Positions 9,077 through 40,801 of a stretch of DNA of 64,000 nt are shown here, in pieces; positions within the stretch are counted from its first letter, which is position 1, and every line of letters begins with the position of its first letter. Where the stretch lies: the NCBI RefSeq assembly GCF_000331305.1, contig NZ_KB217478.1, positions 6,125,646 through 6,189,645 on the forward strand, given 5' to 3'. The stretch is from Calothrix sp. PCC 7103. GTDB lineage: Bacteria; Cyanobacteriota; Cyanobacteriia; Cyanobacteriales; Nostocaceae. The notes under the pieces were generated by a model, which saw only the letters and a list, made by a program, of their open reading frames with translations, was not told the DNA's origin and did not search any database. The translations under genes and the position numbers were made by a program.

Positions 9077-10813
9077 ATGAAGAGCATATGCGGGCGTATG
9101 TACTACACGACGCTGACTGTGTTTTGCCTGTTGGGATTAACAGGTGCATCAGCGAGTACAAAAGGTGATAAAACAGATGTTGATTTGAAGATTGGGATTG
9201 TGCAGCGGTTTGGTGATAGTCCAAAAGATTTGTTACAGCTTGAACCAACTAAGGGGGATAAGCTGCTATTGAGTTTTCGGACGAGTAACGGTCAACAAAC
9301 TGTTAGTACCGATAAACCTGTGCGATTAGAAATTGCGATGCAGCCACCAGCAAAACCTAGCATTAATGAGCGAGTTGTTTTGGGGGTTTTTCGGACTTTT
9401 GAGACAGCAGAGGATAATGCCAATAGATGGCGCGAGTTAGGTATTCAGGTAGAAATAGCCCAGCCAGACCGTTGGCAGGTATGGGCTTCTCGCAAAGTAT
9501 ATAGTACTCCGCTGTTGCGACGGTTATTATTACAGAGCTTACAAGCAAGCGGTAGAAAGACTCCATTCATTGATACTGAAGTCATTAAACAGGCGCCAGT
9601 TGTAAGTTGGACAGTGGGAGACAAGCGTTATAACGTCAATTCGTTGGCTATCGATAGTCAAAAAAGCCTGGTTTTGGTAAACCAAGGTAAAAAACTTGAC
9701 GTTCACGTTCACGTTCACGAAGTGTCGCGAAGCGAAGTGTCGCGTTCACGCAGTGTTCCGCAGGAAAGCGAAGTGTCTGCGAAGGAGAATAAAGACGCAA
9801 AAACTCCAAATAATCAACAAAAAAAGGATACTCTTAATCCAAACAAAGCACGGTTATTCCCTGGTAATTTACAGGTACAACCAAATGCTTATGGAACTTA
9901 CACGCTTGTAAATAACGTTCCATTAGAAACATATTTACGTGGAGTAGTACCTTACGAAATTGGTAATAACGCCCCAATGGCAGCACTCGAAGCACAAGCA
10001 ATCATTGCTCGAACATACGCATTGCGGAATATACGTAGATTTGCCGCCGATAATTATCAACTCTGTGCTGATACACACTGTCAAGTTTATTTTGGTTTAA
10101 AAGATGTTTCAGCTAGTACAGACAAAGCTATCGCCAGTACAAAAGGGATGGTAGTAACGTATAAAAATCAATTAGTAGATGCGTTGTATTCAGCTAGCAC
10201 AGGAGGCGTAACAGCTTCATTTTCTGATGTTTGGAATGGAGACGACCGTTCGTACTTGCGACCCATATTAGATGCACCGAACAATATATGGAACTTGACG
10301 GGGCAATCGCTGCGTGAGGAAAATAATTTGAAAGCGTTTGTCAATAAAAAAGAAGGGTTCAATGAAACTGGTTGGGACTTATTCCGTTGGAGGAGAGAGT
10401 CGCGCATTGAGGATATAACTAAGAGTTTGCAGAAATTTTTGGCAGTTAAAAAGAGTCCATTTGCCAAGCTTAAGGAAGTTCGGGAAATGAAAGTTGTCGA
10501 GCGTAGTGATAGTGGACGGATTTTGAAATTAGAGATAAAAACCGATATTGGTTCGTTTCACTTGACTAAAGACGAAGTTCGTAGTGCATTTGCGGCGCCA
10601 ATAAGTACACTATTCTACTTAGAGCCACTCAACAAAGGTGGGTCAGACTTGTGGGGATATGCTTTTGTTGGTGGAGGAATGGGACATGGAGTGGGTTTGA
10701 GTCAAGTTGGAGCGCAAAATTTAGCTAAACTTGGCAGATCCAGTGCTGATATTCTTCAGTTTTATTACCCAGGCACAAAACTTCAAGTTCTTGACGACAA
10801 AATCAAAAAATAG
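9077..10813 (+). CDS. SpoIID/LytB domain protein, probably exported
   Basis: About 578 residues from Met 9077, which begins a signal peptide (TLTVFCLLGLTGASA). The frame is open to 8996, but the earlier residues are not signal-like. An N-terminal SPOR-like segment (FRTFETAEDNANRWRELGI) is followed by the SpoIID domain (about 290-570) with NNVPLETYLRGVVPYEIG, LEAQAIIARTYALRN and GYAFVGGGMGHGVGLSQ. SpoIID proteins are lytic transglycosylases acting on denuded glycan; many cyanobacterial homologues are periplasmic. Residues about 207-240 (HVHVHEVSRSEVSRSRSVPQ) are encoded by an inserted repeat and are low-complexity. Confidence 0.82.
   Translation: MKSICGRMYYTTLTVFCLLGLTGASASTKGDKTDVDLKIGIVQRFGDSPKDLLQLEPTKGDKLLLSFRTSNGQQTVSTDKPVRLEIAMQPPAKPSINERVVLGVFRTFETAEDNANRWRELGIQVEIAQPDRWQVWASRKVYSTPLLRRLLLQSLQASGRKTPFIDTEVIKQAPVVSWTVGDKRYNVNSLAIDSQKSLVLVNQGKKLDVHVHVHEVSRSEVSRSRSVPQESEVSAKENKDAKTPNNQQKKDTLNPNKARLFPGNLQVQPNAYGTYTLVNNVPLETYLRGVVPYEIGNNAPMAALEAQAIIARTYALRNIRRFAADNYQLCADTHCQVYFGLKDVSASTDKAIASTKGMVVTYKNQLVDALYSASTGGVTASFSDVWNGDDRSYLRPILDAPNNIWNLTGQSLREENNLKAFVNKKEGFNETGWDLFRWRRESRIEDITKSLQKFLAVKKSPFAKLKEVREMKVVERSDSGRILKLEIKTDIGSFHLTKDEVRSAFAAPISTLFYLEPLNKGGSDLWGYAFVGGGMGHGVGLSQVGAQNLAKLGRSSADILQFYYPGTKLQVLDDKIKK
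9698..9790 (+). repeat. Interspersed repeat inserted in frame in the SpoIID gene
   Basis: A block beginning with GTTCAC three times in tandem and continuing with GAAGTGTCGCG/CGCGAAGCGAAG palindromic units. The reading frame stays open through it and it encodes a Ser/Arg/Glu/Val-rich linker between the N-terminal part and the SpoIID domain. Its base composition differs clearly from the flanking coding sequence. Confidence 0.7.
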
Positions 10814-10865
10814 CTGTACTGTGTCGTTCCATCTCTGACACTTTGGCGCCAATAAAAAACAAGCA

Positions 10866-10891
10866 AAAAAAGGGAAAAATGTTTCCCTTTT
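10866..10891 (-). terminator. Rho-independent terminator of petF
   Basis: On the minus strand, AAAGGGAAA-CATTT-TTCCCTTT is followed by a run of T. It lies about 40 bp past the petF stop codon. The stem is nearly symmetric and may also serve the convergent SpoIID gene. Confidence 0.75.
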
Positions 10892-10930
10892 ATGCTATTC
10901 ATATTTTTCTACTTAATATTCGCGTTTTTA

Positions 10931-11332
<402 letters not shown>

Positions 11333-11501
11333 CTACGAGAAAAACAACACTATGTAACCGGAAATTTGACGCGATTAGTAATGAAATTTAGTTACTTCTG
11401 ACCGATAAGTTTTGTTTATATTATTTACTGATACAAAGTAAAATCATCAAGTAAATTTATACTCAAGTGATAAATTCATCAAAATTATTGGCGTAGTAGT
11501 A

Positions 11502-12497
11502 ATGTACGATTTAGGACAGAATCTAACTAAGCGTATAAATGTCGGCTTAGTTGGTACGGGATATGCGGCAAAGCTACGGGCAGAAGCATTGCTGCAAGAT
11601 GAAAGAGCAAATTTAGTAGCAGTTGCAGGCGCCGAAAACGCGCGTAACGAAGCATTCGCAGCATCTTATCAAGCGTCAGCAATAGACTCATGGCAGCAAC
11701 TGGTAGAGTCAACGGGTATAGATTTAATTATTGTATCGACGATAAACAGTGAGCATAGCGCAATAGTTCGTGCAGCTTTGGAGTCAGGAAAGCATGTTGT
11801 AGTTGAATACCCTTTAGCACTCAATGCGATTGAAGCTCTTGAACTTATAGCTTTAGCTAAAGACAAAAATTTATTACTTCACGTTGAACACATAGAACTT
11901 CTGGGTGGTTTACATCAAGCCATTAAACAACACATATCAGAAGTTGGGCAGGTATTCTATGTTCGTTATAACACTATCAAACCCCAGCATCCTGCCCCAC
12001 GCAAATGGACTTATAACCATGATTTGTTTGGGTTTCCGCTTATGGGTGCCTTATCTAGGCTACATCGTTTTACTGATTTATTTGGTAAAGTTTTAACGGT
12101 AAACTGTCACCAGCGCTTCTGGCAAATTGAAGATGATTATTTCCAAGGTTGTTTTTGTGTTGCCCAACTTTCGTTTGAAAGCGGACTATTAGGACAAGTT
12201 ATTTACGCCAAAGGTGAAACTCTTTGGCAAAACGAACGTAAATTTGAAATTCACGGTGAACACGGGGGCATAATCTTTAACGAAAATACTGGTCAAATGG
12301 TACGTCGTGACGGAACAGTACCTATTGAAACAATTAACCGTAAGGGATTATTTACAAAAGATACAAGTATGGTATTAGACCACCTCTTGACAGGTGCCGA
12401 ACTTTATGTTAGTTCAGAACAAAGTTTATATACCATGAAAGTTGCCGATGCAGCTTTGCGTTCAGCACAAACAGGTTTAACAATGGTTGTTGATTGA
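11502..12497 (+). CDS. bvdR: Biliverdin reductase (Gfo/Idh/MocA fold)
   Basis: A 331-residue protein. The N-terminal Rossmann fold has VGLVGTGYAAKLRAEAL, and the middle region VEYPLAL, LLHVEHIELLGGLHQAI and FGFPLMGALSRLHRFTDLFG closely resembles the Synechocystis BvdR I recall. The enzyme reduces biliverdin IX-alpha to bilirubin with NAD(P)H and is needed for normal phycobiliprotein content. The length fits the family (about 330). It is divergent from petF and followed by a strong palindrome that probably ends the transcript. The alternative, a generic Gfo/Idh/MocA oxidoreductase, is less likely given the family-specific motifs. Confidence 0.85.
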   Translation: MYDLGQNLTKRINVGLVGTGYAAKLRAEALLQDERANLVAVAGAENARNEAFAASYQASAIDSWQQLVESTGIDLIIVSTINSEHSAIVRAALESGKHVVVEYPLALNAIEALELIALAKDKNLLLHVEHIELLGGLHQAIKQHISEVGQVFYVRYNTIKPQHPAPRKWTYNHDLFGFPLMGALSRLHRFTDLFGKVLTVNCHQRFWQIEDDYFQGCFCVAQLSFESGLLGQVIYAKGETLWQNERKFEIHGEHGGIIFNENTGQMVRRDGTVPIETINRKGLFTKDTSMVLDHLLTGAELYVSSEQSLYTMKVADAALRSAQTGLTMVVD

Positions 12498-12504
12498 ATA
12501 TCTC

Positions 12505-12541
12505 AGAGAAACCTGGTTTCTTCAAAAAACCAGGTTTCTTA
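12505..12541. terminator. Long inverted repeat between bvdR and a convergent gene
   Basis: GAAACCTGGTTTC and AAACCAGGTTTC are separated by TTCAAA and followed by TT. It is a CTGG variant of the GAAACCGGGTTTC family. It sits exactly between two convergent genes, as expected of a bidirectional terminator. Confidence 0.65.
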
Positions 12542-12548
12542 ATTTCTT

Positions 12549-12854
12549 TCATTTCTTACGAGCATTAGTAACAACCAGTTCAAATTCCCAACCTGGTATT
12601 TCTTTAACACATTCACTAATTTTAAGCAAAGAAAGTGAACCATTAAGACTCAAACTTTCGCGTGAACGTACATTAGCAGCAACTACTTTCTCACCATTTT
12701 TAGCTATCAAATCAAGCGAACAATCTGCTAATTTAGGTGGTAATTTATCAGCAGAAGGGTAGATGCAAACTGAGTAACCTTGTTCACGGTACTCGCGTGC
12801 TAGTTTTAACACTCGTTTGTGTTCAAGATTATTTTGATGATCAGAAGTATTCAT
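12549..12854 (-). CDS. Small protein resembling REase-fold AHJR-like family, catalytic motif lost
   Basis: About 101 residues from Met 12854. The pattern VLKLAREYREQGYSVCIYP, LDLIAKNGEKVV and PGWEFELVVTN resembles the restriction-endonuclease-fold AHJR-like family as I remember it. In active members the core strand ends in an E-V-K-S-R type motif; here it reads AANVRSRESL, so the Glu and Lys expected for catalysis are absent. It may be a non-catalytic binding protein or a decaying gene. The next gene upstream on the same strand is a RusA-like resolvase. Confidence 0.5.
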   Translation of the reverse strand: MNTSDHQNNLEHKRVLKLAREYREQGYSVCIYPSADKLPPKLADCSLDLIAKNGEKVVAANVRSRESLSLNGSLSLLKISECVKEIPGWEFELVVTNARKK

Positions 12855-26653: not shown

Positions 26654-27138
26654 GTTAATATACCCCGTGCGAAAGCCCTATATTTTCTTAAATTAATTCA
26701 GCAATCAGTTTATTGTACAACTGGTACTAACTACTCAATTTTAGGGTGCCGCAAAACCTTTCTTTATGACTTTAGATACCAACGCAATGAATAAATTGAT
26801 GCTTATAACCAACTAATAGTAGCATAAATAACTCTCATGTTGAGATGTTGAGATGTTTCTGGCTAACAATAACAAGCAATTACAAATTATATCTAAGTAA
26901 TTTATATGTAAAATAAAAATTTTAAAATAGCCATCATAATACGTATTACTACTTAGAGGAACTTTCAAAAAACGTACTACATTTGTAGTTAAAAGTAATC
27001 AGAATAGGCGCCGCTTTATTAAGTGTCCCTTGCAGACAACATTAGGTATGTACTGTTGTTATAAAATACAGAACCAAAGCAGTAGCTACTTACTAGGGTG
27101 CTTGAGGAAACTTGATAGTTTATAAGCGTGCAAAGCCA
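26654..27138. other. 485-bp divergent spacer
   Basis: It lies between divergent lpdA and the NB-ARC gene. It is AT-rich with one GGCGCC site (27007) and a small inverted repeat ACTACATTTGTAGT near 26977. No ORF is supported. Confidence 0.45.
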
Positions 27139-29718
27139 ATGACTCAGCAGCATACAGAAGAACTTGCCAAGCAAGGGGATGTCAACGCGATTGAAGCTTT
27201 GATAAATGAATTGATTGAACCGAATGGAATCAAGGCAAAAGTTGGAGTAAAAGACAGTTGTTTGTATGTTGCTTGTCTGGGGGCAGAAATTCCAGAAAGG
27301 CAAGCTCTAGTGAAATGTATTGGTAAAAGGATACTCAAGCTAGGTATAAAATCGCTGCAAAGCGCCAAAATTTATGCTGCACAGTGGGGTCAAAACCTTC
27401 CTGTTTGGCAACAGGAAATTCCACTTAACCCACTTCGTTTAGATTTGAACAACAACGCTTCAGCAAAGGTACCTGTAAATCCTCAACCAGCGAAACAACT
27501 GCGTGTAGGTAGGCACAAAGTTCAAATATCTTCCAAAGGTATTATCGTTAGCAAAGGTCAACTAAAAGAGATTGAATATCATTCGCAGTGCCTTATAATG
27601 CTGCCGCGTCCTTTACCCAATTTAATTGGACGATTATCACAAATAAAAGGCGCCTTAACATTTTTAGATACAAATCAATCTATCGAATTTTATGGTTCAG
27701 AAGGGTTAGGCAAATCGGCATTACTAAGGCATCTATTATACTTTATCCACAAAAATTCAATTTTTACTGATGGTGCAGTTTGGTTTGGTAATGCTTATCA
27801 TTCGCAAGCCGATTTACTACAACATCTATTTGAACTTTTCCACGAAAGCAGCACAACATATAAACCAACGAACTTAGAAACTCGCCGATTTCTTCACAAT
27901 AAAAAGCTTTTAATTTTTTTAGATGACGTAAACTTAACGTCCGAAGACATCCAGCAACTAGAATTAATATTACCTGGTAGCCGCTTTATAGTAGCATCAT
28001 CAAGTCAAAAGCTTTCTTCTAGTTCTTCTACACAATTATCAGGGTTGTCCAAACGTGATAGCATAGCATTTATAACGCAGAAATTACACCAATCAATTAG
28101 TGCAGAAGAGCTAGTGACAGTAGAAGCACTAGCTAATTTGCTTTCAGGACACCCATATATGATGCAGCTTGCTGTAAATTGCATAAACAAAAATGTGTGT
28201 ACATTGAGTGAGTTGGTATTAAAGCTACAACCACCTGAAAGCAGTCAAAAATTGATTAAGCAAATTTTGAAAGTATTACCAACAGAACATCAAAATATTC
28301 TAGCGACGTTAGCAACTGTTGATGGAATTGGATTATCGAGGGTACAAATCGAAGCTTTAAGCGAAGCTAACGATACATCAGAAATATTAGCAAGCTTGCT
28401 AGATTGGAATTTAATTGATACAGAGTTTAGTCGATATTCTCTAAATAAAACTCTAGTAATAGCATTAAAGCAAGAGCTAGTTTTAAACTCATTTTACGAA
28501 CGTGTACTCTCTAACTTCATAACTTGGGCAGAAAAATATCCTGAATTTTTAACCTTGGGTACTCCCAATGCTTTAATACCTATTCTCACCTGGGCAACTC
28601 AAACAGAACGCTACTCGAACATTTTGCGTTTAGTAAAAGCTACTGAAGTTTCCTTATTCTTGAGTAAACGTTGGGGATTGTGGGAACAAGTATTAAAGTA
28701 CGGTAACATCGCTGCAATTGCCTTAAACGACAAACAGAACGAAGCTTGGATGCTGCACCAACTAGGAAGCATAGCTTTGTGCTTAGATGATACGAGTGTA
28801 GAAGCGCACAAGTACTTAACAAGTGCGTTAAAAATTCGTGAATCTTTGAATTTAGCAGATGCAGTTGCAGCTACTAGTCAGAATTTAAAACTAGTAAAAA
28901 TTTCTTCACCTGAACCAGATGAAATTACACAATATCGAATTAATCGCACGCAAACTAATACCAAATTACAATTTTTAGCTATTGCATTAATACCATTATT
29001 CTGTTCAGCTTTAGCTGGATTACTAGCTTGGTTCGTCGTATCACATTTAATCACATCATCAGCACCAAGTGGTCTCTCTAAGCAACCACAAGAATTGACG
29101 AACGTGTCAACATTTAAGATTAGCACCAGTGATTTAAACTTTGGCAAACAGCGAGTAAACGCAGAAAGTAAAAGTGAAACAGTAACAATTACCAACGATA
29201 GCTTAGTATCAATGCGAATCGCCGAAATTGAAACAATAGGGAAGCAAGGAGATTTTGATATTACTAACAGCACTTGTGCAACCGCAATACCACCTAAACA
29301 AAGGTGTAATATATCAATAGTATTTGCTCCTATCGAAATTGGTGAACATCGCGCAAGCTTACAACTCACCGACAGTAACGGCAAAACATTACAGCAAATA
29401 ATAATGAAGGGAATGGCAATATCAGCTATTCAACCAACATATGATATTCCAGTGGCGCCTTCCCCTATAATTCAAACACCCTTACCACTCCCAAAACCAA
29501 AACTAATATTACCTCAAACACCCAAAATAATTAACAATCAACCACGCATCTATACTCCATACACACCAACACCAATTCAAACTCCCCAACAACCTATCGA
29601 ACTACCACAAGCAACACAAACAGAACAACATACGGACACAATAACCGAATCACCCGAAGTATTTCCGACCATCGAAACAACACCCGAACCCACAGAAACA
29701 CCAACACAAGCAAACTAA
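27139..29718 (+). CDS. Membrane-anchored NB-ARC/STAND ATPase with C-terminal ASH-like domain
   Basis: About 859 residues from Met 27139. An N-terminal domain (1-95) of unknown type has a strand-rich part and the segment GIKSLQSAKIYAAQWGQ. A STAND-type ATPase follows: P-loop FYGSEGLGKSALLRH (about 185-199), Walker B KKLLIFLDDVN, RNBS-like LPGSRFIVASSS and LSGHPYMMQLA. Winged-helix and helical repeat-like regions run to about 600. One transmembrane helix (about 612-636, LAIALIPLFCSALAGLLAWF) precedes an ASPM/SPD-2/Hydin-like Ig domain (about 655-765; LNFGKQRVNAESKSETVTI, CNISIVFAP) and a Pro/Thr/Gln-rich tail. STAND proteins are signal switches. Here the sensor may lie outside the membrane (inference). 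Confidence 0.7.
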   Translation: MTQQHTEELAKQGDVNAIEALINELIEPNGIKAKVGVKDSCLYVACLGAEIPERQALVKCIGKRILKLGIKSLQSAKIYAAQWGQNLPVWQQEIPLNPLRLDLNNNASAKVPVNPQPAKQLRVGRHKVQISSKGIIVSKGQLKEIEYHSQCLIMLPRPLPNLIGRLSQIKGALTFLDTNQSIEFYGSEGLGKSALLRHLLYFIHKNSIFTDGAVWFGNAYHSQADLLQHLFELFHESSTTYKPTNLETRRFLHNKKLLIFLDDVNLTSEDIQQLELILPGSRFIVASSSQKLSSSSSTQLSGLSKRDSIAFITQKLHQSISAEELVTVEALANLLSGHPYMMQLAVNCINKNVCTLSELVLKLQPPESSQKLIKQILKVLPTEHQNILATLATVDGIGLSRVQIEALSEANDTSEILASLLDWNLIDTEFSRYSLNKTLVIALKQELVLNSFYERVLSNFITWAEKYPEFLTLGTPNALIPILTWATQTERYSNILRLVKATEVSLFLSKRWGLWEQVLKYGNIAAIALNDKQNEAWMLHQLGSIALCLDDTSVEAHKYLTSALKIRESLNLADAVAATSQNLKLVKISSPEPDEITQYRINRTQTNTKLQFLAIALIPLFCSALAGLLAWFVVSHLITSSAPSGLSKQPQELTNVSTFKISTSDLNFGKQRVNAESKSETVTITNDSLVSMRIAEIETIGKQGDFDITNSTCATAIPPKQRCNISIVFAPIEIGEHRASLQLTDSNGKTLQQIIMKGMAISAIQPTYDIPVAPSPIIQTPLPLPKPKLILPQTPKIINNQPRIYTPYTPTPIQTPQQPIELPQATQTEQHTDTITESPEVFPTIETTPEPTETPTQAN

Positions 29719-34380: not shown

Positions 34381-34557
34381 ATGGATGCCTTAATCGAACA
34401 ATTACAGGTCAAGTTGCGTCAATGGGAACCAGACGTTGCCGAGCAGGTGCGACAATCTATTGCTGAAATTATTGAGTTAGCAGATCGTGATGTATTTGAT
34501 ATTTTACGAAGTCGTATTGTAGAGCAGGAAGTGTTGGATATTTTAGATGAACCCTAA
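34381..34557 (+). CDS. Putative antitoxin paired with PemK/MazF-type toxin
   Basis: 58 residues: MDALIEQLQVKLRQWEPDVA then VRQSIAEIIELADRDVFDIL and LDILDEP. Its stop overlaps the start of the toxin gene by 11 bp, the classic layout of a type II toxin-antitoxin operon, with the antitoxin first. It is acidic and helical. I do not recognise a defined antitoxin family; the call rests on position, size and charge. Confidence 0.65.
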   Translation: MDALIEQLQVKLRQWEPDVAEQVRQSIAEIIELADRDVFDILRSRIVEQEVLDILDEP

Positions 34558-34837
34558 ACCCGGTGAAGTATGGCTTGCTGACTTAGGATTAACAGCTAAG
34601 ATGCGTCCCGTTGTGATTGTATCTCGTTATGACTCTAATCCACCAAGAGCTTTAGTTATTTATGTTCCAGTGACAACCCAAAATAGAGGAAGTTTGTACG
34701 AAGTCGAACTACCAAGACTTCCGTTTCTCATACAAGGTTCTGTAGCTAATGTTCAAGGTTTGAGTTCTACACCAAAAGCAAGATTGGAGCGTAAACTAGG
34801 AGAGCTACCAGAAGAAACAATGCTTGATATCAAGTAA
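34547..34837 (+). CDS. PemK/MazF-family toxin with premature stop
   Basis: 96 residues. The MazF core is clear: NPKPGEVWLADLG, MRPVVIVSRYD, VIYVPVTTQ and QGLSSTPKARLERKLGELP. MazF enzymes cut mRNA. In frame after the TAA at 34835-34837, translation would continue ALLFALDLEIDIEQQSSMKE to a second stop at 34901-34903, which reads as the usual end of the family. A CAA-to-TAA change would explain this. The C-terminal helix is thus lost, and activity may be reduced or gone. Confidence 0.8.
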   Translation: MNPKPGEVWLADLGLTAKMRPVVIVSRYDSNPPRALVIYVPVTTQNRGSLYEVELPRLPFLIQGSVANVQGLSSTPKARLERKLGELPEETMLDIK

Positions 34838-34937: not shown

Positions 34938-36503
34938 CTATAGTTGGAACGCTCCCTGAAATAGTTTATCAACTTCAGTTTCTAAAATCTTTAAAACTTT
35001 TCCTTCCTGTGGTTCAGTAGGAAAACTTGGTAGCTTTTTTACTTGATTTGAAATTGTTCTATACAATGATTCATAATAATTTTGAAACTTTTCAGAGTCA
35101 TCCATGATGTTAGAAGTCATAACATGACCAAGTGTAAGTAACAAAGAAACTGCACTATATCCAAAATAATAGTAGCTAGCACCTACAAATTTAACTTCTC
35201 CTGTTTCTTCTTCCCAATGCTCGGTGTGAGAGTACTCTTCTTTATATCTATCAATTACCTGTCGAGTTACAGTTTTTTTATGATAGCCGACAACTTCATA
35301 AACTTTTTTCTTCTTTCCATATGTACCATGTTCTAATAAATTTTTCATCCCTTTTAAAACATTACTGGTATCAACCCAAACTTCTCTTCTTTCTTTAATT
35401 GGATTATTGTAGTCAGTAACTTGTTCTGAGATAGTCTTGAAAATTGGTACAGATTTATACATCTGTTTCGATTTCTTTTGCTTTACTTTCTCATAATGAT
35501 TGATAATACATTTTTGAAGCACTGTATTAACTTGAGCATTAATTACATCTTGTACACAACTGCTAATTTCTTTTGACTTACATGACAAAGGAGCAATAAA
35601 CTCCCAAAGCTCATTACAAGCATCGTATAAAAATTTATCACTAGCATTAATAGGCTTTTGGCAGGCTACATGTGCAACTAGTCTTAATATCTCTCGTTTG
35701 ACTTGATTAGAAAACTCAACAGGCGCCTTTTCATTCTGGTAATTAATCAATTCATCAAATACCTTTGCTTTATCCAGCTCTAACATTTGTTTGGCAGAAG
35801 TTATTAACTCAGTAATCCCTTCTCCTGTCCAACAGTTGATTTTAACTATTTCAGGTTGACATGCTTCTCCAAAAGCTGAAATATGAACTTTGCTAATTTT
35901 GGTGACTATATCAGTAATATTTTGAGATGTTGCTGATTGACTCTCAATAGCTTGTTTATTGCTAAATGTATTCAATACATAAATAATTTTGCTATAGTGT
36001 TTCAACAAATCCTGTAGATAAATACAGTCATCACGTAAAAACTGTTTATCTGCTGCAATTAAGTAAAAAATTATATCAGACTTAAATTGTTTACTAAAGT
36101 CGTTAACACTAAAGCTTTCTTTCTCGCTGCTTTGATTTTCAAGATATTGAGATAAGGTTAAACTATCAACTATCGGAAAATTTTCTACTTGTTGTAAACC
36201 TAGTGCTGCCCGATTATAATTTTCTAGTCTATCGTCGCTACAAACTCCGGGAAGGTCAAAATAGTTTAGACCGATAGGAAATTTAAGTAGATTAATTTCA
36301 TCGGTACAGTCTTGATGACCTGAAGATGGCATCAAGTAATCCATCCCACTCAAACGATTTCCTAAAGTAGTTTTGCCACTTCCTGTTCTACCAGTTATAA
36401 ATATATTAACGTTGCCAAGACTTGTAGGAAAATTTGCTAGTCTCTCAACAATAAATTTCGCTTGGATAGCGGGTGAAGAGGGTTGATTAAAATTGAAAAG
36501 CAT
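34938..36503 (-). CDS. Dynamin/IRG-like GTPase-fold protein, second of a tandem pair
   Basis: 521 residues. G1 TGRTGSGKTTLGN (residues 37-49), G2-like GHQDCTDE (62-69), G3 YFDLPGVCSDD (81-91). The G4 position reads YVLNTFSNKQ: the Asn is kept but the Lys and Asp of NKxD are not, so guanine specificity is doubtful. A helical region of about 250 residues follows, then a hydrophobic segment (YYYFGYSAVSLLLTLGHVM, about 445-465) that might touch membrane. The design recalls IRG, GIMAP and dynamin-like GTPases. It lies 21 bp downstream of a paralogue and is probably co-translated. Few GGCGCC sites occur here. Confidence 0.65.
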   Translation of the reverse strand: MLFNFNQPSSPAIQAKFIVERLANFPTSLGNVNIFITGRTGSGKTTLGNRLSGMDYLMPSSGHQDCTDEINLLKFPIGLNYFDLPGVCSDDRLENYNRAALGLQQVENFPIVDSLTLSQYLENQSSEKESFSVNDFSKQFKSDIIFYLIAADKQFLRDDCIYLQDLLKHYSKIIYVLNTFSNKQAIESQSATSQNITDIVTKISKVHISAFGEACQPEIVKINCWTGEGITELITSAKQMLELDKAKVFDELINYQNEKAPVEFSNQVKREILRLVAHVACQKPINASDKFLYDACNELWEFIAPLSCKSKEISSCVQDVINAQVNTVLQKCIINHYEKVKQKKSKQMYKSVPIFKTISEQVTDYNNPIKERREVWVDTSNVLKGMKNLLEHGTYGKKKKVYEVVGYHKKTVTRQVIDRYKEEYSHTEHWEEETGEVKFVGASYYYFGYSAVSLLLTLGHVMTSNIMDDSEKFQNYYESLYRTISNQVKKLPSFPTEPQEGKVLKILETEVDKLFQGAFQL

Positions 36504-36524
36504 AACTTATATTAAATATACTTA

Positions 36525-38174
36525 CTATAATAATTCTCTTTCTAGAATGTAAATTAGTTTTTGCTCTATGTCTTGAGCCGAAGGGTTATCAGTAAACTTT
36601 TCGATTTCAACTTTGATATGGGCTAACTTATACTCATAATATACTTCTGCGTCTTTAATACAAACTTGTAAACTGTTTTGGGAGTTACTACAGTAAGTTC
36701 GGACACCTTTACCTAAAGCTAAAATAAGCTTGATGACTGGATAACCACCTTGAAGATAATTTTTGCCGACCACCTCTTCTACTTGTCCAACTACTACCTC
36801 GATAGTATCAATTACTTGTTTTTCGTAACCAAGAAAACGAGTCTCAAGCCTCTCAATAGGTTGTCTTACTTTTTCGTTAAAAATTTCTTCTTCAAAAAAC
36901 TTGAAACCAAAAATGCTTTTTGTAAATGTATTAGTAATTTTTTGAAACCCATTTAATTCTTCGACTGTAACTTTATTAGTTTCAATATAATCGGTTACTC
37001 GTTTTTCTTCAATAATTGGGATTTCTTTAATAAGTTCTTTTAGTTCAGTAATATTTTTTGGAACTATTATATCTTTGGCTTGGCTTTCTTTCACTAATGT
37101 TGCTGTATTCTCAATAATTTGGCTGAGTTCTGCTTGAATTTGAGCAATTTTCTCTGGATTTTTAAAGGTTTCAACCCCATAAGTACAAACTGCTGAAGCT
37201 GCAACTTTTATTAAATCTTGGTTTCCAGCTTTTTGGTCAACTTTATAAGTGGCTAAACGGCTAGCAATGCGAATTAAAGCCTTCTCATAACGGATGATTC
37301 TTTCTTGTTGAGCTAATTCTTTTAAATTACCGCGTAGAACTTGCTGGATATTACCCAGTTTTTCTTTGGGTAATATTTGGCAAATGTAACTAGTAATTTC
37401 ATTTAGACCACTACCTGTCTTAGCATCAAAAGTAAAAATAGGAGGGTTATCATCTGTTTGATAAATTTGTTGAAAATAATTAGTTAGAATATTTTCAACA
37501 TCTTCTATATTTTGTGGAGTATGTTTAACTTCACCTGTTTGTTCATTACGGAAAATATTGATAGCAAAAATAACTTGATTTTTATTTGATGCTTTTTGAG
37601 TTTCAAGTAAGTCGCCTAAATATTCTCTATCTGAGCGAATGAACTGCATATGAGGCGCAATTACATAAAGAATTATATCTGGCTGTACTTCCTTTTGTTT
37701 ATCATTTGATTGCCATTTTTCAACTTGTATCTGTTCTGTTTTTGAATTTTCACCATTAGAATAATCAATTAATTTAAATTTTTGAATAGATATATCAACA
37801 TATTTATCTGGAATTTGAGGCATTAATAAAACAGCACGATTTATATTCTCATATTTGTCGTTGCTACCTGAACCTGGTAAGTCAAAATAACAAAGGTTAC
37901 TAGCTAGCTTGAAATATCCTACACTGTCGGTACAGTCTATGTGCCCTGTAGATTTCATTTCGACTTCTTCTAACAGGCAATTTCCTAGAGAGGTTTTCCC
38001 GGCGCCAGTACGTCCAGTTACATATAAATTAATAGGCGCGGCAAATAACTCATTATTTTTTCTAAAGGTGCCTACTAATTCACGTGACTCTATATCACCG
38101 AGTTCGATAATTTTTAGAAGGTCTGGTTGGTCTTGAAAAATTAGGCGAAGAGTTTCTAATGCATTGTCTGCCAT
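36525..38174 (-). CDS. Dynamin/IRG-like GTPase-fold protein, first of a tandem pair
   Basis: About 549 residues from Met 38174 (AGGA upstream; the frame extends to 38207). G1 TGRTGAGKTSLGN (53-65), G2-like GHIDCTDS, G3 YFDLPGSGSNDKYENINRA, G4 position FAINIFRNE. The motif set matches its neighbour: both have GH-x-DCTD and N-[TI]-F in place of NKxD. Two helical stretches (about 300-400 and 440-545) with a weak hydrophobic segment near the C-terminus follow (GGYPVIKLILALGKGV). Paired dynamin-like proteins in bacteria often work as hetero-oligomers on membranes; that role is inference here. Confidence 0.65.
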   Translation of the reverse strand: MADNALETLRLIFQDQPDLLKIIELGDIESRELVGTFRKNNELFAAPINLYVTGRTGAGKTSLGNCLLEEVEMKSTGHIDCTDSVGYFKLASNLCYFDLPGSGSNDKYENINRAVLLMPQIPDKYVDISIQKFKLIDYSNGENSKTEQIQVEKWQSNDKQKEVQPDIILYVIAPHMQFIRSDREYLGDLLETQKASNKNQVIFAINIFRNEQTGEVKHTPQNIEDVENILTNYFQQIYQTDDNPPIFTFDAKTGSGLNEITSYICQILPKEKLGNIQQVLRGNLKELAQQERIIRYEKALIRIASRLATYKVDQKAGNQDLIKVAASAVCTYGVETFKNPEKIAQIQAELSQIIENTATLVKESQAKDIIVPKNITELKELIKEIPIIEEKRVTDYIETNKVTVEELNGFQKITNTFTKSIFGFKFFEEEIFNEKVRQPIERLETRFLGYEKQVIDTIEVVVGQVEEVVGKNYLQGGYPVIKLILALGKGVRTYCSNSQNSLQVCIKDAEVYYEYKLAHIKVEIEKFTDNPSAQDIEQKLIYILERELL

Positions 38175-38207
38175 TATGAGTATCCTAGAATATAAATATT
38201 TATGCAA

Positions 38208-38632: not shown

Positions 38633-40726
38633 TTAATTTATTTCTTGTTGCCAGAGAATTTGGGCGATTCTTTCCATTCCGGCTTTGAGATGGCGCCTGT
38701 ATGTACTAAATGGTAGGTCTAGTAGTTCGGCGGCTTGTTCTTGAGTGGGAGCAGGGTTTATATATGTTCGGTGTATGGCACGGTATAGTTTGTCGTCACG
38801 TGGTGATACTTGTAAGGATTCGGCGGTTTGTTTGATTAAGGTTTGTAATGTAGAAATTCGTTCGTTGATGTCGTTGGTGTTAACTTTGTCTTCGATTAGG
38901 TGTGAATATAATAGTGGGCTGTTGTGTAATGCGTTTGTACGAGTGAAGTTTTTTAATGCGTCGTTTACTGCTTCGATAAAATCGGGTTCGCTTAGTACTA
39001 ATAATCTAGGAGTTACAGTAGAAGTGATTTCTGCTTCGCTTTTGGCATCTATTTCACGTTTTGCTAAAAGTTCTCGCCAAGCTGAGGGGGAAATTATTCG
39101 CCAGTCATGTCCATAAACTCCGTATTTTCGTTTGTTGATTTCAAAGTCAGCTTTGGGTAATCTTTTTAAATCGAAGTACGTTAGCATCGGCGCCCACATT
39201 TCAGGTTCGGCGCATGGTAAAAATGTATAAGCTAGTCCAGGAGTTTTTTGAAAGTATTGTACAAAGTTGATAAATATTAGGCTTTGAGTTGGTGAGACTG
39301 CTTGATATGTATCGCGTGCCATCCAAAATCTGAATATTGTGGCGCCTTCAGACGAAGAACGCAATGGAGCTTCTGACTGTAAATATTGCCATGCAGCAAC
39401 GGCGCCTGTATCAACCTCTATATCTTGTGCTGTGGCTTTATGCAGTTCTACAAAAATCGCAAACCCTGCTGGAGTAGGATTGGAATCACGGAAGACTACA
39501 ATATTTTCAGGTTGTCGTGATATCCAATGTGCTGCAATTGAAGCAGATTCTTTACCCTCATATTGTGTGATTATTTCTAAAATTCCAGCTTTATCGCTTT
39601 CTCTATATATATCTGTTTGTAAGCTGCTGTGTTCTTGCCAAGTGAAGCGTGGACGAATTGCAGCGTTATCACGATGTAAAAACATATAGTCAAAAAGAAC
39701 CCGGTGTTTCTCGTCTCCTTGGGTTTGACCTAGTTTTACGGTGTAGTAATTACGTGCGCGTTGGTGTAATTCTGCGTAAAATTCCGGATGGCGCCAGCGT
39801 AGGTCAGCGATTAATACTTCTCGCGCTAAATCATGAGGAAATAATCCATTTTGCCCTGATTCTACAAACGAAAGGGAGCGCAACCACTCAAAAATATCTC
39901 TAACGTCAGACAAGTCAAGCATTTGTTTCAATAAAGCTTCAGTAGTCAAACGTACTACCGCACAAGCTTCGAGTGCCATTCGGTGAGCAGTTGATGGTAC
40001 ATCTTGAATAAAGCGTTCAAGTAGAGTCTTAATAACATCTGGTTGACTATCAGGTTGAAAGGTTGTCTCTTTCTGGGTAAATACGTCTGCTACTAACGAC
40101 AGCGCAAGTGGATAACCATGAGTAAAATCAAGAATTACTTGGTGCTGAGTGTTGGGAATATCTCGACGAGCTAAATAACTTAAACTTTCTTCATAGCTCA
40201 AATTACGTAAAGGTAAAGTACGAATTAATGCCTGCCAACCAGGGTCACTGCGCCAAGCTGGGGAAGGTGGAGTGCGACCAGCAAGGACGATTAAAGTATC
40301 AAGAGATAAGTGTGGTAAAAATTCCTCGCGCAGCCATTCATCAAGCGTTGCTATGTTTTCGTAAGTATCTATAAATATAACGTTACGTTTATTACTTGTT
40401 TTTAAAATATCTAAAGGCGATTCTGATTCTTGCAAACCCATAATACCGCGCAACGCTGCTAAGAACGATTCCGGCGCCCCCTGAACAGTTACTACTAAGT
40501 TACGAGCTTCAATAGAAACATAATCACAATTAGCTTGTTCGCACAACTGCATAAACTGCGCGCACAAACTTGTCTTACCAACTCCACCAGGCCCATAAAT
40601 ATATAAGATATTAATAGGCAGTTCAGTCGAGGCTATAGTATTTTGAAACAGTGCTAGCTCTTGCACTCTTCCTACAAACCGACGATTTCGTTCTGCGTTC
40701 AAGCGACCCAAAAGCGATGATGGCAT
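38633..40726 (-). CDS. STAND ATPase with GNAT-like middle region and C-terminal HTH
   Basis: About 697 residues from Met 40726 (GAGG upstream). An ATPase domain at the start: RRFVGRVQELALFQ, P-loop YIYGPGGVGKTSLCAQF, Walker B VIFIDTYENI, and LDFTHGYPLALSLVAD. A winged-helix region (EWLRSLSFVESGQNGLFPHD) follows. The middle (about 370-560) looks acetyltransferase-like (ENIVVFRDSNPTPAGFAIFV), though I cannot confirm catalytic residues. The C-terminus has a sigma-4-like HTH (TQEQAAELLDLPFSTYRRHL). It may be a ligand-activated transcription regulator. The combination is unusual. Confidence 0.65.
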   Translation of the reverse strand: MPSSLLGRLNAERNRRFVGRVQELALFQNTIASTELPINILYIYGPGGVGKTSLCAQFMQLCEQANCDYVSIEARNLVVTVQGAPESFLAALRGIMGLQESESPLDILKTSNKRNVIFIDTYENIATLDEWLREEFLPHLSLDTLIVLAGRTPPSPAWRSDPGWQALIRTLPLRNLSYEESLSYLARRDIPNTQHQVILDFTHGYPLALSLVADVFTQKETTFQPDSQPDVIKTLLERFIQDVPSTAHRMALEACAVVRLTTEALLKQMLDLSDVRDIFEWLRSLSFVESGQNGLFPHDLAREVLIADLRWRHPEFYAELHQRARNYYTVKLGQTQGDEKHRVLFDYMFLHRDNAAIRPRFTWQEHSSLQTDIYRESDKAGILEIITQYEGKESASIAAHWISRQPENIVVFRDSNPTPAGFAIFVELHKATAQDIEVDTGAVAAWQYLQSEAPLRSSSEGATIFRFWMARDTYQAVSPTQSLIFINFVQYFQKTPGLAYTFLPCAEPEMWAPMLTYFDLKRLPKADFEINKRKYGVYGHDWRIISPSAWRELLAKREIDAKSEAEITSTVTPRLLVLSEPDFIEAVNDALKNFTRTNALHNSPLLYSHLIEDKVNTNDINERISTLQTLIKQTAESLQVSPRDDKLYRAIHRTYINPAPTQEQAAELLDLPFSTYRRHLKAGMERIAQILWQQEIN

Positions 40727-40801
40727 AGTATAACCCTCGCGACGCACAATAGATACAAAGTGAATCTCTATTTTATATACGCGAGTTAAGAGATTTTGGA
40801 T

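Follow-up and report, generated by a model that had tools for sequence, protein, structure and literature searches.

A pair of adjoining P-loop NTPases with an IRG-like G domain and a degenerate G4 motif in Calothrix sp. PCC 7103

Closest Described Systems

The IRG proteins (Irga6/IIGP1, IRGB10) are an animal immune family of large P-loop GTPases that act as dimers or oligomers, and their helical domain is made up of N- and C-terminal helices around the G domain. To our knowledge, little is known of the bacterial side of this family. Here we describe two adjacent genes, A and B, of the cyanobacterium Calothrix sp. PCC 7103, which lie in an analyzed stretch of 64,000 nucleotides (contig NZ_KB217478.1, positions 6,125,646 to 6,189,645; hereafter the window). 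IRG proteins are the best profile and Foldseek match of B and share the DLPG form of G3, but the pair lacks [TN]KxD, is below cut-off or unlisted for IIGP, carries a long predicted arm and is a bacterial operon pair. Our preferred interpretation, held tentatively and at a little under an even chance, is that A and B are the halves of one heteromeric membrane-acting NTPase, whose role is most likely an accessory one in conflict or the envelope-stress response. We regard the pair itself, its fixed order, the G4 signature and the patchy distribution as firmly established; support for membrane action is moderate and comes from the fold neighbors and the B tips of relatives; and from distribution and company we infer a conflict or defense function.

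Bacterial dynamin pairs such as Campylobacter Cj-DLP1/2 and LeoABC/Eleos offer a similar arrangement, with two unequal adjoining paralogs, a G domain plus long stalk, and a tip inferred to touch the membrane. A also has Foldseek matches to BDLP and LeoA. However, the Calothrix pair falls below the Dynamin_N cut-off, has a degenerate G4 and is predicted to carry a β-hairpin, not a helical stalk. The paired bacterial dynamin is a heterotetramer that tethers membranes, according to the sections consulted of Liu et al. (2018; PMC6104087), and a review that covers cyanobacterial dynamins makes no mention of a pair like ours in its relevant text (PMC9950537). EHD ATPases are the top Foldseek matches of A (4cid, 5mtv) but are absent from the sequence-profile matches of A4 and A5, and no EH domain was matched in A or B.

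Two further systems invite comparison through their G domains. SpoIVA, a membrane-associated TRAFAC protein, has likewise kept the asparagine of G4 and lost the lysine and aspartate, but it is a single gene with other domains, and the base choice of our pair is only predicted. In the SpoIVA family the lysine is replaced by serine or threonine and the aspartate position is poorly constrained, and the G4 and G5 changes accompany a preference for ATP (PMC7952092, in the parts consulted). According to the consulted portion of Kaur et al. (2020; PMC7159879), DO-GTPase (double-GTPase) systems are built on a single TRAFAC GTPase or two paralogous ones, include HSP70 in some cases and hardly occur in cyanobacteria. 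They share with our loci the one or two TRAFAC GTPases, a constant third component, variable partners and, in some cases, HSP70. Their G domain is a different one, however, unalignable with ours beyond the P-loop, and neither the zinc ribbon nor GAP1 was seen among the selected neighbors scanned here. No paper on the pair itself was found in the literature searched, outside which most subscription papers lie.

The Gene Pair and Its Placement

Both genes are on the minus strand, and a gap of 21 bp separates B from A:

34938..36503, minus strand: gene A, P-loop NTPase of 521 amino acids, downstream member of the pair
36525..38174, minus strand: gene B, P-loop NTPase of 549 amino acids, upstream member of the pair

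The B frame is open up to a TTG at 38207, and its 549 amino acids are counted from the ATG. An earlier sequence-only reading of this DNA had taken the two open reading frames (ORFs) for adjacent paralogs, and BLASTP bears this out (27% identity over 524 columns, E 5e-39). A search of the 11.58 Mb host genome with A at E 10 returned two places, both of them this pair. By these two proteins, Calothrix sp. FI2-JRJ7 and Dulcicalothrix desertica are among the nearest relatives of the host.

The Pfam family MMR_HSR1 matches both proteins over its cut-off of 21.9 (A 27 bits, B 26.4 bits), and together with G1, the switch threonine, G3 and the Foldseek matches this places the pair in the TRAFAC superclass of P-loop GTPases. 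No other curated model tested claims it. Dynamin_N gives A 14.7 bits against a cut-off of 27 and does not list B up to E 1; IIGP (PF05049) and AIG1/GIMAP (PF04548) list neither protein up to E 1, and in relatives they reach 15.7 (L057) and 18.8 bits (L059) against 24, and 16.1 bits (L059) against 27, respectively. At the same limit of E 1, neither A nor B is matched by SpoIVA_ATPase or by DO-GTPase2 (the accession of which we take to be PF19993), and the Pfam scan of the two proteins gave no match to the EH domain.

Profile and structure comparisons reach further. The best sequence-profile match of B is Irga6 (E 5e-5, over G1-G3), followed by EngB (8e-5); A reaches only Der (0.0018) and EngB (0.0055), with IRG at 0.018. 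By Foldseek, Irga6 is again the best match of B (1.5e-6), and EHD2 (4.6e-6), EHD4 and Irga6 head the matches of A, with BDLP, LeoA, mitofusin, GIMAP2 and Toc34 lower down. In both models the G domain and the arm lie between helical segments, but the template modeling (TM) scores to IRG chains, 0.22-0.28 by query, are low. Since the whole-chain alignments have a large root-mean-square deviation and a low TM score, we claim kinship for the G domain only, and there is strong support for IRG, EHD and dynamin-like proteins as its nearest kin. The IRG/GIMAP/dynamin-like character proposed by the sequence-only reading is partly supported: the nearest folds include Irga6, EHD, BDLP, LeoA and GIMAP2, but the curated Pfam models do not place the pair in any of the three families. 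Eleos membership is not indicated by the matches to its components, which are short and confined to the G domain (LeoBC 3e-8 over A residues 19-92, LeoA 1.8e-4 over A 28-99, LeoBC 4e-4 over B 53-114). Era, EngB and Der are also among the matches, but identity with an ordinary Era/TrmE/EngB protein was rejected because of the extra 300 residues, the pairing and the G4.

A Degenerate G4 in Both Partners

The G motifs were compared in an alignment of 31 proteins (13 A rows and 18 B rows, the window pair included), in which some rows are nearly identical. The principal motifs of the window pair are:

36369..36392, minus strand: G1 of A, GRTGSGKT (alignment)
37992..38015, minus strand: G1 of B, GRTGAGKT (alignment)
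35964..35972, minus strand: degenerate G4 of A, N178-T-F180, closing predicted strand 173-178 (model and alignment)
37551..37559, minus strand: degenerate G4 of B, N206-I-F208, closing predicted strand 200-206 (model and alignment)

In full, the window pair reads GRTG[SA]GKT, GH[QI]DCTD and FDLPG, the last followed by VCSDDRLENYNR or SGSNDKYENINR; these motifs, the stretch after DLPG and the N-[TI]-F at G4 are as the sequence-only reading described them. Across the rows the P-loop is GRTxxGK[TS] or a near form and is present in 30 of the 30 rows that reach that far (L061 starts after the P-loop), the threonine of the switch region is kept, G3, found in 31 of 31, reads D[LT]PG and then EN[YIV]NR, and a TGxG-like loop makes up G5.

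The G4 asparagine is retained in all 31 rows and sits, in the models, at the end of the strand where NKxD belongs, while the lysine at +1 and the aspartate at +3 are missing from every one; at +2, 30 rows have F, H or Y and one has L. The non-canonical G4 first noticed in the window proteins thus extends to all aligned relatives, and the pair does not carry the [NT]KxD signature of guanine specificity. An ordinary G4 in another place, which would have spoken for an ordinary GTPase, was sought by a motif scan of the 31 rows and rejected: none lies at or near its place, and [NT]KxD does not occur within the first 330 residues of 30 rows, the sole case being residue 120 of the A protein of L056, in the linker after G3. 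Retention of the asparagine with loss of lysine and aspartate, as in SpoIVA, suggests ATP or a relaxed base choice; by this analogy the nucleotide of the pair may be ATP, or the bases may not be discriminated.

Predicted Arms

AlphaFold models of both window proteins (mean predicted local distance difference test, pLDDT, 81.9 for A and 77.3 for B) run from the G domain through helical segments and a β-hairpin to a helical end. The hairpins form the predicted arms:

35178..35501, minus strand: predicted long β-hairpin arm of A, residues 335-442, with a short helix at the tip (AlphaFold, 10-residue blocks at pLDDT 67-85)
36756..37079, minus strand: predicted long β-hairpin arm of B, residues 366-473 (AlphaFold, strand blocks at pLDDT 63-86, tip below 50)
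36891..36956, minus strand: tip of the B arm, residues 407-428, Phe-rich with three lysines (residue composition)

The strands are predicted to span 44 and 47 residues in the hairpin of A and 41 and 45 in that of B, so that the arms would be some 135-155 Å long at 3.3 Å per residue. The sequence-only reading had expected long helical parts. This fails for the window pair, the middle of which is predicted as β-hairpin, and probably holds for 7 of the 12 relatives of A (7 of 13 A rows), where a segment of 348-350 residues fills the arm slot. This segment, which weakly matches apolipoprotein and coiled-coil proteins, is probably a coiled coil; the long A proteins remain alignable at their C-terminal end (residues 427-521, 31-35% identity). 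In the A protein of L056 the slot is taken by an acidic segment with 71% charged residues.

A strongly hydrophobic, uncharged run of 22-55 residues occurs mid-arm in 9 of the 18 B rows, with the hydrophobic peak at a mean offset of 0.07 of segment length from the midpoint, and three further rows have an uncharged run of 12-13 residues flanked by 48 and 46 residues. No solved counterpart of the arm was recognized among the Foldseek matches listed, whose rows give no aligned ranges.

Distribution, Gain, and Loss

Relatives were sought in 217 genomes of the family, 378 of the order, a phylum sample of 386, 7 of the genus, and a genome-contig scan, several loci of which are the same records as genomes of the other samples. 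Fragments and cross-matches included, A as query matches 9 of 217 family genomes and B 8 of 217. The phylum sample gave 7 of 386, one of them by a short doubtful match; G466, with a 35-bit short match, a single ORF of 301 amino acids and a weak G-domain match, was not counted as a pair. A B-profile match was found in 20 of the 378 order genomes, and in 17 of these A adjoins it downstream on the same strand, its type confirmed by BLAST. The other three hold a B-B pair (G1021), a contig whose end lies 182 bp beyond B (G940) and a fragment (G1090). The contig scan returned 18 loci, of which 17 are true (15 of them cyanobacterial) and one (L063) was discarded as a false match to an ATP-binding cassette transporter. 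B is followed by A on one strand in 13 of the 17, including L058 with its broken A, so the two-gene neighborhood suggested as a check by the sequence-only reading is conserved elsewhere. Two gammaproteobacterial metagenome-assembled genomes (MAGs; L060, L061) have B without a detectable A, and in the class of the Parabeggiatoa genome the only match in 274 genomes is that genome itself.

Within the genus the pair sits between an acetyl-CoA synthetase gene and a TPR/UbiA block. It is intact in two of the seven genomes (G000, G064) and fragmentary in three (G060, G062, G065), and the flanks occur without it in the remaining two (G061, G063). These empty or decayed sites fit acquisition, which had been proposed from a scarcity of GGCGCC sites. 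The proposal fares better than its original argument: GGCGCC depletion is weak evidence because the 2 sites compare with 5.2 expected and 7% of same-size windows have 2 or fewer, and acquisition is better supported by the lower G+C of the pair (0.325 and 0.324, against 0.387 for the window). In the four other family genera with the pair, the fetched neighborhoods share almost no genes with that of the window. Carriage by viruses, plasmids or phages was considered and rejected, as no match was confirmed among viral contigs (viral_contigs, query A3) and none was found for A or B among plasmids or phages.

Neighboring Genes

A third gene, U, which encodes a coiled coil and a conserved domain, stands upstream of B in 7 of the 17 loci. 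Two of the seven are fusions, with U joined to B in Microcystis (L057) and to a partial B in L050. The U proteins of L049, L053 and L060 have no Pfam match over cut-off. By hhalign, U1 and U3 are homologous (95.7%, E 1e-8) and U2 and U3 probably so (50.6%, 1.6e-4), while U1 and U2 have no direct match (5.3%); a short U2 remnant is present in L054 and L055. A profile of U1 and U3, without U2, matches in 6 of the 13 pair- or B-bearing genomes searched. In L051, a UBA11153 contig, A is 80% and B 50% identical to the proteins of L049, and U is of the L053 type, which reads as a natural swap of the A subunit. This apparent swap, with the U-B arrangement without A in L060, suggests that U and B may form the core and that A can perhaps be exchanged.

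The U family also occurs away from the pair. The window genome has two U relatives elsewhere, one of them fused to WD40 repeats (Pfam). Members of the family away from the pair lie at L144:8479-10833 (WD40, Pfam), L145:5652-7472, L146:6474-8426 and 10390-12591, and L147:5653-7923. The fusions in L145, L146 and L147 carry what appear, by reading alone, to be WD40- or TPR-like repeats.

Other companions vary from locus to locus. L053 has an HSP70-TPR gene and two LeoA/LeoBC-like dynamins, the latter downstream of the pair; in L042 a dynamin lies 93 bp upstream of B; B of L059 bears a kinase-pentapeptide fusion and A of L050 a TPR-GUN4 fusion. PIN-toxin-like genes lie between B and A in three lineages (L049:3752-4371, L052:8355-8983, L129:3438-4074), each with a small ORF ahead (that of L052 Phd-like, below cut-off), and there is no BLAST match among the three; L124 and L121 appear to be the L049 and L052 records and were counted once. 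A NUDIX gene takes the same position in L040:10811-11230. This interval may be a docking site for small conflict genes. Downstream of the pair in L048 (10695-14046), a DNA polymerase III beta gene is followed by an intein-bearing clamp-loader gene.

STAND-like ATPase genes are found in the window at 38633-40747 and 27112-29718 (AAA_16 and NB-ARC over Pfam cut-off). The former was considered as a fixed partner and rejected, being present without the pair in G063 and missing beside the pair in G064.

Proposed Mechanism and Alternatives

If A and B form one heteromeric NTPase, each G domain with its helical base would carry one very long thin arm, and the tip of the B arm would touch or enter the membrane. 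The two G domains would dimerize across their nucleotides, as proposed for the paired bacterial dynamin-like complex, nucleotide turnover would move the arms, and U, where present, might act with B as an adaptor or sensor. The role would be phage defense, membrane sealing or permeabilization rather than housekeeping. A bolder version, which we regard as rather improbable, is an undescribed prokaryotic immune machine: two IRG-like NTPases that now use ATP instead of GTP, or no longer select a base, would form a heteromer with exchangeable arms (β-hairpin, coiled coil, acidic) and drive the hydrophobic B tip into the membrane, under the control of a coiled-coil adaptor family that these genomes also employ alongside WD40 and other repeat sensors.

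In favor of the membrane-acting heteromer we count the paralogy, the shared motifs, the constant B-A order, the correlated A and B distances given below, the fold neighbors, the predicted arms and hydrophobic B tips, the patchy occurrence, the accompanying genes and, for the nucleotide, the SpoIVA precedent. Several observations weigh against it. The AlphaFold input alignments were shallow (13 rows for A, 18 for B), with predicted TM scores of 0.64 for A and 0.48 for B. A cross-strand charge test gave the hairpin no support (chance 0.49 and 0.76), and charge complementarity was dropped as an independent proof of it; nor was symmetry of the arm by length borne out, the arm halves of the nine hydrophobic-tip B rows showing no joint rise (correlation -0.25). 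The tip of the window B, Phe-rich as it is and with three lysines, has no long uncharged run, and the same is true of six other B rows (6-10 residues). Distance matrices of A and B are correlated (r 0.82 for 15 pairs and 0.75 for 13 with near-duplicates removed; 0 of 20000 permutations each), but plain co-inheritance would also explain this, and A and B lineages are mixed in L051. The window subtype has no U gene beside the pair, its STAND and toxin neighbors are not conserved with it, and PADLOC gives weak partial matches alone (LeoBC, LeoA, mad8, mad3).

An ordinary though divergent dynamin-like/IRG heteropair, which uses GTP, tethers membranes like Campylobacter DLP1/2 and has a G4 change without effect on base choice, is unlikely but deserves serious thought: IRG, EHD, BDLP and LeoA are among the top PDB matches, and most bacterial dynamins are operon pairs according to the consulted sections of PMC6104087. 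Against it stand the G4 lysine and aspartate missing in 31 of 31 rows, the scores short of Dynamin_N in A and of IIGP in two relatives (with B unlisted for Dynamin_N), and window proteins for which no helical stalk is predicted. That same G4 decay, in the style of SpoIVA, would suit a static scaffold in which ATP hydrolysis drives one-way polymerization on a membrane without remodeling, and the long arms could serve as polymer contacts. Yet SpoIVA_ATPase is absent from the Pfam matches of the pair, a heteropair with a third gene is not known from SpoIVA, and half of the B rows have a hydrophobic tip that would suit a membrane; we consider such a scaffold distinctly unlikely.

A pair that remodels developmental or photosynthetic membranes of cyanobacteria, outside any conflict system, would account for the preponderance of cyanobacteria among the true scan relatives (15 of 17) and for the GUN4-TPR fusion on one A protein, and a role in the dynamics or repair of thylakoids has been put forward for a cyanobacterial dynamin-like protein (PMC9950537, in its relevant text). 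We consider it fairly unlikely in view of the rarity of the pair (9 of 217 genomes in the family, 20 of 378 in the order), its decay or absence in close relatives and the two B-type genes in gammaproteobacterial MAGs. We give almost no credence to a DO-GTPase conflict system, in spite of the paired paralogous TRAFAC GTPases with variable partners (PMC7159879, in the parts consulted) and the HSP70 in one of our loci. PF19975 occurs in three other places of the window's genome and none is at the pair, profile comparison aligns 23-25 P-loop columns and no more, the glutamate after DLPG is missing, and GAP1 has no match among the selected neighbor proteins scanned; membership was rejected on the PF19975 search and the profile comparison.

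The pair bears on wider questions. A conserved bacterial pair that is nearest IRG by its G domain, in patchy loci some of which hold dynamins, HSP70-TPR or toxin-antitoxin-like genes, offers a test of a bacterial-conflict origin of membrane-attacking NTPases. The uniform loss of the G4 lysine and aspartate in both partners provides a second natural case, beside SpoIVA, for the role of base choice, and the arms, if real, would be an unusual type of stalk.

Other Features of the Window and Genome

A PemK/MazF-like toxin gene lies at 34547-34837 of the window, convergent with A, and plus-strand remnants directly before it resemble small ORFs repeated in the genus-mates L044 and L043. A DO-GTPase1 match (PF19975) is present about 42 kb beyond the window (G000:C7:6231302-6232880; L086, L109), in two adjacent ORFs of 380 and 385 amino acids. 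The same family is over cut-off in 7 of 98 sampled phylum genomes, despite the near absence from cyanobacteria stated in the consulted portion of PMC7159879.

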